This document shows, piece after piece, positions 17,401 through 32,721 of a stretch of DNA of 35,789 bases. The DNA is from Dehalococcoidia bacterium (GTDB taxonomy: Bacteria > Chloroflexota > Dehalococcoidia > GIF9 > UBA5629). The notes beneath the pieces are model-generated. The model did no database searches. It worked only from the letters and a program-made list of their open reading frames with translations, and had not been told where the DNA came from. The translations under genes were made by a program, and so were the position numbers. The first letter of the stretch is position 1. Every line of letters begins with the position of its first letter. The DNA lies in the NCBI GenBank assembly GCA_016783155.1, contig JADHXB010000007.1, forward strand, positions 1 through 35,789, in the 5' to 3' direction.

Positions 17401-18409
17401 TGTTCTATCTGAAATCGATGGTATTGCAGAGGTAATTGAGACTCAAGATTTGCGGAAAATCAGAGTCATCAGTTCTGAATCATATTTAGATGAATATACG
17501 TTGCCATCGGGAGCGGAGGTGGCTGTAAGTAATGGGCAGTGGGTCGAGGCAGGAACAAGTCTTGCCACGCTAGCACCGCCGTCGCCTAAAAAACGAACCA
17601 AAAGCAAGCAACCAGCAGTTATTGAAGAGCATCCGGTGATAGCTAGAGTTGCTGGCAATGTAGTTGTTGAGGATGATCGCCTCTATATCAAGTATGAAGA
17701 GGTGGAAGAGCGGGAGTATATAATTCCCTCCGGTAGCCACATTCGTATTAAATCAGGCGATAGGGTGAAAGCTGGAGACCAGTTAATTGATGGTGCCGTT
17801 GATCCACAGGATATTCTACGTATTATGGGGAGAGAAGCAGTGCAGCAGTATTTGGTTGAAGGGGTGCAAAAGGTCTATCGCTCGCAAGGCGTAAGCATTA
17901 ATGATAAACATATTGAAATTATTGCCCGACAGATGCTTAGGCGAGTTCGTGTAGAATCCCCAGGTGACACCGAGCTTCTTTCCGGAGACCTAGTTGATCG
18001 CTTCGAGTATGAGAGTATAAATGCCAAGGTTTTGGCTGAGGGGGGTGAGCCAGCCACTGCTCAAACTGTTCTCCTTGGGATTACTCGGGCTTCATTAAAT
18101 ACAAGTAGTTGGTTAGCCGCAGCTTCTTTCCAAGAAACTACGAGAGTGCTTACTGAAGCGGCAATTTGGGGGAAAACAGACAGGCTTCTCGGGCTGAAGG
18201 AAAACGTAATTATCGGTAAGCTTATTCCATCTCAGTCTTTGCCAATGGCTGAGAAAGGTGAAGCAGAAGCTCCACAGATAGATGTTTCAGTGGTGCCGGT
18301 GGTATCAGAGGTGTCAGAGGTGTCAGAGGTGTCAGAGGTGTCAGAGGTGTCAGAGGTGTCAGAGGTGTCAGAAGTGTCAGAAGTGCCGGGGGAAAAGCTG
18401 ATCACCTGA
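14405..18409 (+). CDS. rpoC: DNA-directed RNA polymerase subunit beta prime
   Basis: Largest core subunit (1,334 aa). Visible are zinc site 1 (C60, C62, C75, C78), the catalytic NADFDGDQM (D522, D524, D526), the bridge helix/trigger loop region from [13 protein letters not shown] to [16 protein letters not shown], and zinc site 2 (C849, C922, C929, C932). A charged coiled coil with extra residues follows zinc site 1 (about residues 140-215). A Lys/Pro-rich insert ([11 protein letters not shown]) sits near residue 1060. The last 40 residues are odd: nine consecutive Val-Ser-Glu units before the stop. AAAGGAG precedes ATG 14405. An intrinsic terminator follows. Confidence 0.98.
18302..18382 (+). 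repeat. Tandem 9-bp repeat, nine units, inside the 3' end of rpoC
   Basis: Nine in-frame copies of GTGTCAGAG (first unit GTATCAGAG, last two GTGTCAGAA) encode (VSE)x9 in the RpoC tail. The near-identity of the units at DNA level indicates recent expansion by slippage. Every unit is 9 bp, so copy-number changes keep the frame. Confidence 0.95.
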
Positions 18410-27681: not shown

Positions 27682-29115
27682 ATGAAAGTATCTAATACGC
27701 TGACGGGGCAAAAAGAAGAGTTTCGTCCCAAGGGGAAAACGGTAAGTATTTATGTCTGCGGGGTTACTGTTTATGACGATTGCCATATCGGGCATGCCAT
27801 GAGCTATGTGCTGTTTGATGTCATCAGGCGCTACCTTGAGTTCAAAGGCTATAAGGTAAAGCACGTGCAGAACTTCACCGATATCGATGACAAGATAATA
27901 AATCGAGCCAATCAGCTGGGAGTTTCGTCTTCGGAGTTGGCTGAGAAATATATCGACGAATATTTCCGGGACATGGATGCTTTGAATATAAAGCGAGTCC
28001 ATGTCTATCCAAAGGCGACTGAAGAAATACCCAAGATAATCGAGGTGATACAGGGCTTGATAACCAAAGGCTTTGCCTATGAGTCTGAGGGCAGCGCCTA
28101 TTTTCGGGTGAAAAACTTTCCCGGCTACGGCAAGCTGTCTCATCAGGCTCTGGATGACATGATATCCCGTGGCTCCGCAGAAGAGGGCAAGAAAGAATAT
28201 CCGCTGGATTTTGCCCTATGGAAGGCAGCCAAGCCGGGCGAGCCTTTTTGGCCAAGTCCCTGGGGTCAGGGCAGACCGGGGTGGCATATAGAGTGCAGCG
28301 CTATGGCGTTGAAATACCTGGGTAAAAGCCTTGACATACATGGTGGTGGGCAGGACCTTATCTTCCCTCATCACGAGAATGAGCTAACCCAGTCCGAAAG
28401 CTTCACCGGTGTTGCCCCTTTCGCCAAATACTGGCTGCATAATGGGCTGCTACAGTTGGGTGAGGATAAAATGAGCAAGTCCCTGGGCAACCTGATAACG
28501 GTGAAGCAGGCCCTGGAACGCTACAGCGCCGATGCAATTCGACTGTTTATAATCGGCTCCCATTATCGCAGCCCGTTAACCTATAGCGAAGAGACGCTGA
28601 AAGCAGCCGAGGTTGGTATGGAGAGGCTGCGACAGGCGACCGGGAATGGTGGTGGGAGTGGTGGAAAAGATGTCCTTGGTAGTGAACCGTTCAGGCACAG
28701 GTTTGTTGACAGCATGGATGATGACTTCAACACCGCACAGGCGGTGGCAGTGCTTTTCGACTTGGCCAGGGAGATTAACCGGGCACGTGAAGAGAATTAC
28801 GATGTAACCAGTGCTCTGAATACACTGACGGAACTGGCTGGGGTGCTAGGCTTCACGCTGGAGGAGCCGAAGAAGCCGCCGCTCGAGACCGGACCTTTTA
28901 TTGGACTTCTAAGCGAGCTTAGTCATGAGTTTCGTCGGGCACCAAGGCATGACCTGAAGGTCGAGCAGCTTATTCAGCTGCTGATTGAGACCCGTGAGAA
29001 ATCGCGTAAAGCCAAACAGTGGCAACTGGCTGATATGGTACGGCAACGCCTCATCGAGTTAGGGGTGGCTCTCGAAGATACGCCCAAAGGGACGGTGTGG
29101 AAGCGCACCCTCTAG
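27682..29115 (+). CDS. cysS: Cysteinyl-tRNA synthetase
   Basis: Class I synthetase charging tRNA-Cys (477 aa). HIGH lies at residues 35-38 and KMSKS at 263-267. Zinc ligands appear as C26 in [11 protein letters not shown], the cysteine of WHIECSAM and the histidines of FPHHENE. A helical anticodon-binding part follows, ending [16 protein letters not shown] lies just before ATG 27682. The linkage to cysE is functionally sensible. No convincing terminator follows, only a bulged hairpin near 29128-29149 and then a palindromic repeat. Confidence 0.97.
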
Positions 29116-29158
29116 CTCCATCTTTTTTCCTCTCCCTTTACGGGAGGAAGGGTTAGTT

Positions 29159-29239
29159 TACGTGTCACCCGCCTTCGGGTGACCGTCGTGGTTTGTATCT
29201 GTGTGGTGGGTCACCTGTGGGCAGGTGACACCTAGAGAA
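29159..29239. repeat. 81-bp palindromic repeat, copy 1
   Basis: It has inverted ends GTGTCACCCGCC / GGGCAGGTGACAC and two internal hairpins: CACCCG-CCTT-CGGGTG and GTCACCTG-TGGG-CAGGTGAC. It matches copy 2 (30272-30352) at 76 of 81 positions in the same orientation. The pair brackets the chagasin-domain gene. Confidence 0.9.
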
Positions 29240-29280
29240 TCTATAGGGTGAAAGCTCTGCCTGTGTTGCTGAAAAAAGGG

Positions 29281-29309
29281 TTGCATATTTAGCTAAAATC
29301 CATGACAAT
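29281..29309 (+). promoter_or_regulatory. Possible promoter of the chagasin-domain lipoprotein gene
   Basis: TTGCAT (29281-29286), 17-bp spacer, GACAAT (29304-29309). It predicts a start near 29316 and a leader of about 45 nt, which would exclude the upstream ATG at 29310 as the translation start. Confidence 0.4.
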
Positions 29310-29360
29310 ATGAAAAACAGATTCTTGAAAGTGGTACCCGTCTGCGAAAAGGAGGTAATA

Positions 29361-30248
29361 ATGAGGATAGCTTCTGTATTGCTAGCATTGTCTTTACTGT
29401 TGGTTGTTTGCGCCTGTGCGGCGCCTCAAGCCGCTCGCCCCACGGTAAATCATTTCTATGCCAACCCGGCAAGCATATCCGAAGGAGATTCCTGCACTCT
29501 TAATTGGAGAGTGGCCGACGCAGATACTGTGACTATCGACCATGCTCTGGGCACAATGCCTGCCGTCGGCAGCTGCACCGTGACTCCGGATGAGACCACA
29601 GTTTATGAACTGACAGCCACCAATCGTTCCGGTGCCACTGTCGCGGATACTACGGTGACGGTTTCTACCAAACCGCCGGCAGTGGACATGCCGGTGATCA
29701 ACCATTTTGAATCGACTCCTAACTCAGTCATGCCTGGCGGCATCGCCACCCTGGCATGGGATGTTGCCGGCGCCTCGTCGGTGAGCATTGGCCAGGGTGT
29801 TGGTGACGTGGAGGCTCAGGGTCGCAAAGGCGTGATACCTTCCGGGACGACTAAATACACCCTAATGGCAGTCAACGCCTCGGGTGAGGTCAGTGCCTCC
29901 ACCAATGTTGTGGTAACGGAGCTGGCTACGTCACAGCCGCCGGCAGAAGTGGTTTCCCCTCATATTGGGCTGCAGGTAGGCACGGACAGACAGTTCACCA
30001 TCAACCTTGATGCCAGCCCGTCGACAGGCTTCCAGTGGGAGCTGGATTATTATGACCCCAGCTTTGTCGATCTGGTGGGAAGTGAATACGAGCCATATAG
30101 TGTGCCCCAGATGGGCTCAACCGGGTCGCGGCACTTTACCTTTAATGCTCTCAAAGTGGGGGATACCAAGATAAAGCTCTCCTATACTCATCCCGGAGAG
30201 CCGCTGAATTCTTCAAGCAAGTACTACCATGTGCATATAACCCCGTAA
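29361..30248 (+). CDS. Lipoprotein with two Ig-like repeats and a chagasin (I42) inhibitor domain
   Basis: ATG 29361 is preceded at four bases by AAAAGGAGGT, so it is preferred over ATG 29310. The 295-aa product starts with a signal peptide ending VVCAC (C19 or C17 lipidated). Residues about 27-100 and 110-185 are two homologous Ig-like repeats (VNHFYANPASISEGDSCTLNW against INHFESTPNSVMPGGIATLAW, each ending in a YELTATN/YTLMAVN strand). The last 90 residues resemble chagasin: SPSTGFQW in place of NPTTGYxW, then GSTGSRHFTFNALKVGDTKI and YTHPGEP in place of the RPW loop. Chagasins inhibit papain-like cysteine proteases. An external inhibitor on a wall-less or S-layered cell is plausible; the target is unknown. 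Confidence 0.82.
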   Translation: MRIASVLLALSLLLVVCACAAPQAARPTVNHFYANPASISEGDSCTLNWRVADADTVTIDHALGTMPAVGSCTVTPDETTVYELTATNRSGATVADTTVTVSTKPPAVDMPVINHFESTPNSVMPGGIATLAWDVAGASSVSIGQGVGDVEAQGRKGVIPSGTTKYTLMAVNASGEVSASTNVVVTELATSQPPAEVVSPHIGLQVGTDRQFTINLDASPSTGFQWELDYYDPSFVDLVGSEYEPYSVPQMGSTGSRHFTFNALKVGDTKIKLSYTHPGEPLNSSSKYYHVHITP

Positions 30249-30271
30249 TTATTGCCAGGAACGCGGTAACC

Positions 30272-30352
30272 TACGTGTCACCCGCCTACGGGTGGCCGTC
30301 GTGGTTTGTATTTGCATGGTGGGTCACCTGTGGGCAGGTGACACCTAGAGAA
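30272..30352. repeat. 81-bp palindromic repeat, copy 2
   Basis: Same length and orientation as 29159-29239 with five substitutions. The outer inverted ends and the right-hand hairpin are unchanged. It lies between the 3' ends of the chagasin-domain gene and the convergent MBL gene. Confidence 0.9.
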
Positions 30353-30376: not shown

Positions 30377-31210
30377 TTAGATGGTGATAACGTTGCCCGT
30401 GTTGTTGAAAAAGAATTTATCGCCGAACTCCTGAAACAATATGGCGGCTGCCTGCAGCCCGGTGCAGTGTGATACGCCTATCTTCTGGACACCAAGCTTT
30501 TTCAATTCGGCTATGGTCAGGCCCATCTGTTCTCTGGAAGCGTGTAGCAGGTGAGTCCCGCCGACAACCATGTGTATTTGTTCTACGCCGGTTATTTTTC
30601 GGGCATGATGTAAGGTGTTTATCATGCCTCTGTGTCCGCAGCCTAAAACAACTATCAAGCCCGTCCGAGTCTTAATGACAAGGGCAAGGTCGTCCTTGAG
30701 GGGGTCGGGACGGAGCTCTCCGCCTTCCTTGACAAGAAGCTCACGGTCGATCTTCTCATATTCGGTATGCATGGCTATCTCGCCGGTGGTGACGATGTTA
30801 TCGGTAATCCATACCGGCTCTTGGCTAAGCCTGAAGGAAGCTCCCCAGTTCTCCAGTGCTTCTCGGACAAAAGGTATACCGGCGTATTGCTCTTTGTTGC
30901 TGAAGGTGCGGGAGTACTTGGCTGCCCAGATGTCGGGATGAGCTATTACCTCGATTTCCTTTCTCATCACGTTCAGCACATGTTGTAAGCCGCCGGTATG
31001 GTCGCGATGTCCATGGCTCAGGGCTATCCTGTCAACTGCGGACAGGTCTACGCCCATAATGGCTGCATTATAGGCAGCCGATATACCCAGTCCAGTATCC
31101 AGCAGGACTTTATAGTTATCCGCTTCTACCAGTATGCTCAATCCCCACTCAGCCAGCAGCCCAGGCATGCCGGTGGTGTTTTCGCTCAATGTGGTAAGTT
31201 TTATCTGCAT
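30377..31210 (-). CDS. MBL-fold metallohydrolase
   Basis: A 277-aa metallo-beta-lactamase-fold enzyme of the group often annotated as dihydropterin ribofuranosyl aminobenzene phosphate synthase-like. The metal motif is LSHGHRDHTGG (H66, H68, D70, H71), with D38 in LLDTGLG, the later GCGHRGMIN, and the final VSHCTGLQAA. Natural substrate unknown; the wide LLDTG...HGHRDHTGG family also occurs in methanogens and anaerobes. ATG 31210 has a good AAAGGAGG at nine bases. It stands apart from neighbours, with repeat clusters on both sides. Confidence 0.88.
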   Translation of the reverse strand: MQIKLTTLSENTTGMPGLLAEWGLSILVEADNYKVLLDTGLGISAAYNAAIMGVDLSAVDRIALSHGHRDHTGGLQHVLNVMRKEIEVIAHPDIWAAKYSRTFSNKEQYAGIPFVREALENWGASFRLSQEPVWITDNIVTTGEIAMHTEYEKIDRELLVKEGGELRPDPLKDDLALVIKTRTGLIVVLGCGHRGMINTLHHARKITGVEQIHMVVGGTHLLHASREQMGLTIAELKKLGVQKIGVSHCTGLQAAAILFQEFGDKFFFNNTGNVITI

Positions 31211-31257
31211 CTCCTTTAACCTCCTTTAGCCTATTTGTCATTGCGAGCCCTTTTTTC

Positions 31258-31344
31258 TGTCATTGCGAGCGAAGCGAAGCAATCTCACCGCCTTTCCCGG
31301 CCACCACCGAGATTGCCACGTCGCTGACGCTCCTCGCAATGACA
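31258..31344. repeat. 87-bp palindromic repeat, GTCATTGCGAG family, full copy
   Basis: It has perfect 12-bp inverted ends, TGTCATTGCGAG / CTCGCAATGACA, and an inner inverted pair, GCAATCTC / GAGATTGC. A same-length copy lies at 32413-32499. It is noncoding, between the MBL and SAM hydrolase genes. Confidence 0.9.
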
Positions 31345-31350
31345 CCCCAC

Positions 31351-31444
31351 TGTCATTCTGACCCTGAACGAAGTGAAGGGGAAGAATCTCAACACATCGT
31401 CCCCTCCTGAGATTCTTCGGTCGCTTCGCTCCCTCAGAATGACA
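31351..31444. repeat. 94-bp palindromic repeat, TGTCATTCTGA family
   Basis: It has perfect 11-bp inverted ends, TGTCATTCTGA / TCAGAATGACA, and inner arms GAAGAATCTC / GAGATTCTTC. It is related in layout to its neighbour but of a different sequence type, and is placed seven bases after it. Confidence 0.88.
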
Positions 31445-31454
31445 GAAAAAGGAA

Positions 31455-31492
31455 CCGAGATTGCCACGGCACTCTGTGCCTCGCAATGACAG
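31455..31492. repeat. Partial GTCATTGCGAG-family repeat (right half)
   Basis: GAGATTGCCACGGCACT and the end CCTCGCAATGACA match the right half of the 87-bp repeat. It lies 14 bp from the 3' end of the SAM hydrolase gene. Confidence 0.7.
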
Positions 31493-31506: not shown

Positions 31507-32340
31507 TTATTGTCCCAGCTTTATTTCATCTCCCACCCTGGCATTCAGAGAGGCGGCGGCGCTGCCGTTATTTAGCGATATCTCCAGATAGCCGCTGCTG
31601 CCGATGATGGCTGCCAGGCCTTCTTTCTCGGCGTAGAACTGGCTTATGCCATCTATATGTTGCTTGCCGATAGCTACGGTAATTCTTTCACCGGGCAAAT
31701 CGCCGCTCCTGATATTGGTGACCAGGTTGCCGAAGTTATCTATGTGGAGAACACAGCCGGTGATGTTTCCCTGGTTATCACGGAAAGGTCGTGGTATGTG
31801 AAAGGCGTAAACATGGCTCAGGCTGTCGCCGAATTTGTGTATAGCTGTGCCGAGCGAGAGATGGGCGGCAACCGGAGCGAATATATCCCGTCCGTGGAAG
31901 GTGGTGCTGGCGGGCTTTCGCCAGAAATCGGGGTTGGTGATGGCGACTGCCTCAAATCCTGCCCCGAGTTTTCTTTGTTCGGGACCGGGGGAGAAATGAT
32001 GAGCTGGCTTGGCCGGCGCTGTGTCCAGCTCGTCTATTATATAGCTCAGAACGCCGTTATCGGGTGCCAGGAAGAAAGCCTTCGGTGTTTTCAGTACAAT
32101 GGCTTTCCTCCGGCTGCCGACGCCCGGGTCGACTATAGCCAGATGAATTGCTCCTTCAGGGAAGTAGCGGCAGGCGGTGCTGAGAATGAAAGCTGCCTGG
32201 AGTACATTCTGTGGCTCGATGGAGTGGCAGATGTCGACGATGACCGCCTTGGGGTTGATGGTCAGTATTACCCCCTTCATGCTGGCCACGTAGGCATCGC
32301 CAGTACCGAAGTCTGTGGTCAAAGTGATGACCGAGGCCAT
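31507..32340 (-). CDS. S-adenosyl-L-methionine hydrolase (adenosine-forming), DUF62 family
   Basis: Cleaves SAM to adenosine and methionine, using water/hydroxide; related to SAM-dependent fluorinases and chlorinases. The N-terminus ITLTTDFGTGDAYVASMKG, then IVDICHSI, IHLAIVDPGVGS, LAPDNGVLSYI, HGRDIFAPVAAHL, and the C-terminal HIDNFGNLVTNI and IGSSGYLEISLN are all family signatures. The 277-aa length is normal, and no halogenase-specific insertion is apparent, so hydrolase is favoured. AGGAG lies just before ATG 32340, inside the edge of a palindromic repeat. Released adenosine could feed purine salvage. Confidence 0.92.
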   Translation of the reverse strand: MASVITLTTDFGTGDAYVASMKGVILTINPKAVIVDICHSIEPQNVLQAAFILSTACRYFPEGAIHLAIVDPGVGSRRKAIVLKTPKAFFLAPDNGVLSYIIDELDTAPAKPAHHFSPGPEQRKLGAGFEAVAITNPDFWRKPASTTFHGRDIFAPVAAHLSLGTAIHKFGDSLSHVYAFHIPRPFRDNQGNITGCVLHIDNFGNLVTNIRSGDLPGERITVAIGKQHIDGISQFYAEKEGLAAIIGSSGYLEISLNNGSAAASLNARVGDEIKLGQ

Positions 32341-32350
32341 GCTTTTCTCC

Positions 32351-32405
32351 TGTCATTCCTAGCCACTACCGAGATTGCCACGTCGCTGATGCTCCTCGCA
32401 ATGAC
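32351..32405. repeat. Truncated GTCATTGCGAG-family repeat
   Basis: A 55-bp shortened copy: TGTCATTCC left end, GAGATTGCCACGTCGCT core, CTCGCAATGACA right end. It lies ten bases upstream of the SAM hydrolase start. Confidence 0.75.
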
Positions 32406-32412
32406 ACCCCTC

Positions 32413-32499
32413 TGTCATTGCGAGCGAAGCGAAGCAATCGCATCGCCTTCCCCAGCCATCACCAGGATTGCCACGTCGCTAATGCTCCTCGCAATGACA
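32413..32499. repeat. 87-bp palindromic repeat, GTCATTGCGAG family, second full copy
   Basis: Same length and ends as 31258-31344 (TGTCATTGCGAG / CTCGCAATGACA). It fills the gap between secG and the SAM hydrolase gene. Confidence 0.9.
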
Positions 32500-32502
32500 C
32501 CC

Positions 32503-32721
32503 CTAGATGATGACGACAACCAGGATGCAAATGGCTATAAATAATACAGTTAAGCCGATGGTGAACCGGAAAAGGCTTTTTTCCGCGCCCCGCCGTGTCC
32601 TGTAGACGCTGTCCGGCTGTCCGAATATGCCTCCAAGCCCGCCGCCCTTTACCTGTAACGTAAGCACGATAATTAAGGCTAGAGCTACCACAATCTGGGC
32701 AACAAGTAGATAGTCAGTCAT
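32503..32721 (-). CDS. secG: Preprotein translocase subunit SecG
   Basis: Small auxiliary subunit of the SecYEG channel (72 aa). Two membrane segments ([20 protein letters not shown] and [20 protein letters not shown]) flank the conserved cytoplasmic loop [27 protein letters not shown] 32721 is used because GGAGG lies eight bases upstream; the TTG at 32736 would precede it. The start overlaps the gatB stop by eight bases (ATGACTGA), so it is coupled to gatB. Confidence 0.94.

Follow-up and report, generated by a model that had tools for sequence, protein, structure and literature searches.

The window, a stretch of 35,789 nucleotides from a Dehalococcoidia bacterium, carries the cysteinyl-tRNA synthetase gene cysS (27682..29115, forward strand), whose stop codon lies 43 nt before the first of two copies of an 81-bp repeat (29159..29239, forward). 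Downstream of this copy lies a gene (29361..30248, forward) for a lipoprotein-like protein that combines Ig-like repeats with a chagasin domain (I42) at its C-terminus, the latter recognized by profile match; the second repeat copy (30272..30352, forward) follows. The stop end of a convergent gene for a metallo-beta-lactamase-fold (MBL) protein (30377..31210, reverse) is situated 24 nt past copy 2. The chagasin domain (PF09394, E 1.5e-18) covers residues 225-310 of an open reading frame (ORF) with a mechanical start at 29310; as judged by eye, an AGGAGG-type ribosome-binding site near 29350 favours the ATG at 29361, and a lipobox-like VCAC motif is located near the N-terminus of the protein. 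Elsewhere in the window, another dispersed palindromic repeat, TGTCATTGCGAGCGAAGCGAAGCAATC ... CTCGCAATGACA, occurs in three copies of about 93 nt (31256-31348 and 32318-32503), and the ORFs called over it, for example 31238-31486, look spurious. A further array at 18271-18396 consists of 9-bp tandem repeats with AGAGGTGTC units.

A repeat search of the window returned exactly two 81-bp copies, which share their orientation and 76 of 81 positions (94%), at a spacing of 1113 nt. Each copy has inverted ends, GTGTCACC...GGTGACAC, and contains two 21-nt hairpin units that face each other. In copy 1, a CG-type unit on the left (29164-29184, forward, 5' tag TTAC) is separated by a spacer of 24 nt from a TG-type unit on the right (29209-29229, reverse, 5' tag CTAG); in copy 2, the left unit (30277-30297, forward) carries the tag CTAC and the right unit (30322-30342, reverse) the tag CTAG. 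The pair is not a chance match: the 25-nt right half occurs twice in the window against 0 expected occurrences. Alternatively, each 81-mer folds into one long hairpin, as seen by RNA folding of four genomic copies, with minimum free energies of -39.4 kcal/mol for copy 1 and -47.6 kcal/mol for copy 2 (z -4.3 and -6.3 versus shuffles). The original prediction had described two copies of equal length and orientation, with inverted ends and two hairpins each, enclosing a single gene, and all of these features are confirmed.

Copy alignment and unit scanning resolve the 81-mer into two inverted copies of one hairpin unit of about 21 nt. Its left half reads GTCACCCG-loop-CGGGTGAC, and its right half, read on the opposite strand, GTCACCTG-loop-CAGGTGAC. 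The two halves differ by paired stem changes, with CCCG..CGGG in one and CCTG..CAGG in the other. The 5' tag is YTAG in 15 of 16 TG-type units and YTAC in nine of 11 CG-type units, counts which omit one unit with three mismatches that lies outside the scan. YTAG and YTAC occupy the tag position, in place of the 5' GTAG (or GTGG) tetranucleotide of REPs; in one study, a CTAG mutant is reported to have retained reduced cleavage (PMC8266576).

The window's own genome (G000) is represented by an assembly of 1.45 Mb that is 77% complete. Here, the 81-mer gave 19 BLAST matches and the 21-nt unit 31 pattern matches, compared with one for a reversed-pattern control. After dropping two self-complement duplicates (C74:4691 and C81:2802) and one weak match on contig C92, 28 units remained at 20 places: 11 solo units and nine inverted doublets, of which one (C81:6816-6903) has its left half disrupted. 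Thus, besides the window pair, 18 further places carry the repeat, whole or half, none of which had figured in the original prediction. No copy lies wholly within a called gene, and one unit overlaps the end of an ORF by 10 nt. At nine of the 20 places, this short palindrome of intergenic DNA forms inverted pairs, separated by a spacer, that can fold into a single hairpin. Since palindrome, extragenic site and inverted doublets are present and the GTAG tag is not, we label it REPIN-like: it belongs to the REP kind broadly, and not to the GTAG super-family.

The copies are also clustered. Seven neighbouring pairs lie less than 2 kb apart, five of them in one cluster on contig C30, versus 0.51 expected when random placement is simulated along a single line without contig breaks; collapsing the C30 cluster leaves two such pairs against a mean of 0.29 (P(>=2) = 0.03). 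Clustering of REPs is described in two earlier reports (PMC3733652; PMC3116915).

Neighbouring genes were called with a simple hexamer caller of our own rather than a standard tool, and 17 of the 20 places could be scored, the other three lacking a called gene on one of their sides. At 15 of these 17 places at least one gene 3' end adjoins the repeat, and at nine a stop codon lies no more than 50 nt away or is slightly overlapped by the repeat. Many copies are found directly downstream of housekeeping genes, and the neighbours, named by eye, include mutS, argJ and a glcD-like gene. The earlier suggestion of a dispersed repeat at gene ends is thus supported. These positions, together with the strong folds of the copies and the REPs near 3' ends noted in PMC3733652, would also suit hairpins of any origin that were retained at the ends of genes because they terminate or stabilise transcripts. 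However, the arrangement of the neighbours (11 unidirectional, four convergent and two divergent) resembles that of background adjacent pairs on the same contigs (63, 13 and 10, respectively), with no convergent or unidirectional enrichment by eye. Furthermore, the repeat is absent from most genomes of the family, no U-tract directly follows its hairpins, unlike in intrinsic terminators, and a better terminator-like site exists in a separate hairpin after cysS (29124-29152). A role as intrinsic terminator was accordingly rejected. Selection at transcript ends seems unlikely as the explanation of the repeat, and it would be a possible side effect rather than an alternative origin, so that its probability overlaps with that of the reading preferred below. 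A terminator scan gave four terminator-like sites versus 1.9 expected, including a weak one inside copy 2, and the only Rfam match at the gathering threshold was 5S rRNA.

The complete copies read TA...TA with inverted ends, as would a MITE bounded by TA-flanked terminal inverted repeats and mobilised by a DDE transposase in the style of IS630/Tc1. This origin is nevertheless highly improbable, as half-units standing alone at 11 of 20 places, and a REP-associated tyrosine transposase (RAYT) with this type of hairpin on its flanks, fit REP biology better. No transposase bearing these ends was seen, the transposase searches having been directed at RAYTs.

This RAYT was encountered among the relatives. 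The repeat is restricted to a single family of Dehalococcoidia-type Chloroflexota: it is present in 10 of 30 genomes of this family, whereas 30 genomes from elsewhere in the order lack it. When the GTDB collection was scanned for the exact pattern, a scan which may omit records near the window's genome, 10 stretches were found in five assemblies, all titled Chloroflexi or Dehalococcoidia bacterium. In one relative, G005, contig C191 encodes a RAYT (P0001) that scores 89.7 bits against the NCBIfam model NF047646 (cut-off 80) and matches TnpArep of PDB entry 4er8 by sequence (E 1.6e-4). REP clusters made of a sub-type of the studied hairpin lie on both sides of the gene, with units GTCACCCGCCTTCGGGTGAC and GTCGCCTGCCYACAGGCGAC arranged as inverted pairs. 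While GTCACCCGCCTTCGGGTGAC is identical to a unit of copy 1 over 20 of 20 nt, the pairs differ from the window copies in their 5' flank and in their spacer, which measures about 7 nt. The idea of a mobilised repeat, likewise raised beforehand, gains support from this flanking hairpin and from the dispersed intergenic copies.

Within the family, RAYT genes matching NF047646 occur in G003 (two), G005, G006, G015 (two) and G011 (cut by a contig end); among 18 RAYT loci scanned, only that of G005 carries the studied repeat. Four RAYTs of another clade (the two of G003, that of G006 and G015a; loci L152, L153, L154 and L156) have a GTAG-tagged hairpin, TGTAGGGACAGGTCTTTAGACCTGTCC, on their flanks; this hairpin constitutes a second REP family in the same bacterial family, here called REP-B, and occurs once in the window's own genome (contig C87). 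The second RAYT of G015 (G015b) is flanked by another hairpin, and no flanking hairpin was seen at the truncated RAYT of G011. RAYTs scoring at least 60 bits against NF047646 are found in five of the 10 genomes that bear the repeat and in none of the family's remaining 20 (Fisher P 0.0018). We do not lean on this association, because four of the seven RAYTs carry REP-B, G015b another hairpin, and G011 none that was seen. Given the flanked RAYTs in G005 and in the REP-B clade, the lineage has RAYT/REP pairs, and the studied repeat is most simply read as the cognate of a RAYT related to that of G005. Outside the family, the best homologue of the G005 RAYT among the matches listed (35% identity; L213 in G257) is flanked by GGGTCAGGT...ACCTGACACCC hairpins of its own.

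In the window's own genome, at 77% completeness, neither a search with PF01797 nor one with the G005 RAYT protein as query revealed a RAYT. A weak NF047646 match on contig C61 (16 bits, with stops) was rejected, as it overlaps a TrmO-like gene identified by eye.

Several described systems resemble this arrangement. With REPINs (Bertels and Rainey, 2011; PMC3116915), the repeat shares inverted REP hairpins, a short, less-conserved spacer, the fold into one long hairpin, and extragenic solo units beside doublets; it differs in its few copies, in halves that diverge in stem and loop, and in that no RAYT was found in G000. With BIMEs, or head-to-head REP heterodimers, it has in common the head-to-head heterodimer, the occurrence as clusters and singlets, and many positions near gene 3' ends, as described in PMC3733652; its tag, in contrast, is YTAG/YTAC instead of GTAG, and its sequence turned up in a single Dehalococcoidia-type family. 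The REPtron, in which a RAYT (TnpAREP) is flanked by its own REPs (PMC6006769; PMC8266576), has counterparts in the G005 RAYT on C191, flanked on both sides, and in the four other RAYTs of the family with GTAG-tagged REP-B, but none was found in the 77% complete genome of the window. Among the papers listed by our literature searches, none dealt with RAYTs or REPINs in Dehalococcoidia. T. roseum is a member of the Chloroflexi. GTAG repeats have been reported in this phylum, with T. roseum named for GTAG-23 (PMC3733652), and the RepRanger paper gives palindrome counts for Dehalococcoides mccartyi (PMC12306157).

The arrangement in the window could further suggest a composite mobile cassette, in which the two repeats served as ends and carried the chagasin gene into the spacer between cysS and the MBL gene. 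Almost all of the insert lies within the bounds set by the repeats, with 43 nt before and 24 nt after them, and in all five relatives in which both genes are adjacent (G001, G003, G008, G009 and G012), the spacer holds neither the gene nor the repeat. The spacer of these relatives is, however, host to other accessory material: it is nearly empty in three of the five, contains two small ORFs in G003, and in G001 carries other dispersed repeats, including a REP-B hairpin. The spot therefore collects accessory DNA and the bracketed gene is accessory, but nothing ties its arrival to the repeats. The spacer is too diverged in the five relatives for an exact empty site or target duplication to be defined.

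The gene itself has no close orthologue, nor a second locus, among the matches listed. Its Ig-type family, at E <= 1e-10, is represented in at least 35 of 60 genomes (its own included), many of them without the repeat, which speaks against a cassette. Matches to the Ig-repeat part are strongly expanded in the family, with at least 37 in G014 and at least 32 in G022.

The similarity between copies is equally relevant to this question. The nearest relative of copy 2 in its genome is a copy on another contig (C73:37427; 72/75), ahead of copy 1 (70/75), and copy 1 is equally close to copy 2 and to the C73 copy. The two window copies are hence not uniquely closest to each other, a comparison that weakly favours separate insertion, the signal being weak because the differences between copies are few. 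In line with a cassette, pairs less than 2 kb apart slightly exceed random placement even with the C30 cluster collapsed, and two more single genes lie between same-orientation units, a membrane protein gene (C30:1985-2902) and a methyltransferase gene on C6 (both named by eye). Against a cassette, the three bracketed genes are mutually unrelated and the two further brackets consist of solo units, not doublets. According to the original prediction, a genome-wide search was to count against a cassette if many solitary copies stood at gene ends with no tendency to bracket accessory genes, and this is largely what was found, most copies being solitary or clustered beside unrelated genes. As the repeats are ordinary members of a small, scattered intergenic family, the gene they enclose most likely does not form a mobile cassette, and we regard that origin as very improbable. 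Among the three readings offered originally, those of a dispersed and of a mobilised repeat are supported and that of a mobile cassette is not.

REP and REPIN elements are believed to travel as single-stranded hairpins, with a RAYT, a trans-acting HUH (Y1) enzyme, as their mover, and to build up between genes, often directly behind one. We consider it likely, with a probability of about 0.84, that the 81-bp repeat is a dispersed REP/REPIN (BIME-like) family which is, or once was, moved by a RAYT and is apparently orphaned, and that the bracket represents two neighbouring insertions. The repeat would consist of two inverted, non-identical REP hairpins forming a head-to-head heterodimer; two such elements would have landed, probably separately, in the cysS-MBL spacer, where they came to flank an accessory Ig/chagasin lipoprotein gene. 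The bracket would then arise from nearby insertions, in keeping with REP clustering, and not from movement of the enclosed gene. A RAYT of the G005 type probably moved the window copies, and the element may be orphaned or have its RAYT within the missing 23% of the assembly. Counting against the RAYT/REPIN reading are the failure to find a RAYT in G000, the single positive among 18 loci, with its differing 5' flank and spacer, the non-GTAG tag and the low copy number (20 places).

A variant to which we give very little credence is a non-GTAG (YTAG/YTAC) heterodimeric REPIN system of the RAYT type that occasionally carries a gene between neighbouring REPINs; if true, such pairs would provide a rare route of gene shuffling in Dehalococcoidia. 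The observation holds up but is an ordinary one: an accessory gene has a REPIN-like insertion on either side, and an eye-catching bracket is explained by common REP/REPIN biology. It adds a lineage-restricted REP family for uncultured Dehalococcoidia-type bacteria, as well as RAYT genes that have hairpins of their own on their flanks, of the studied family in one case and of the GTAG-tagged one in four.
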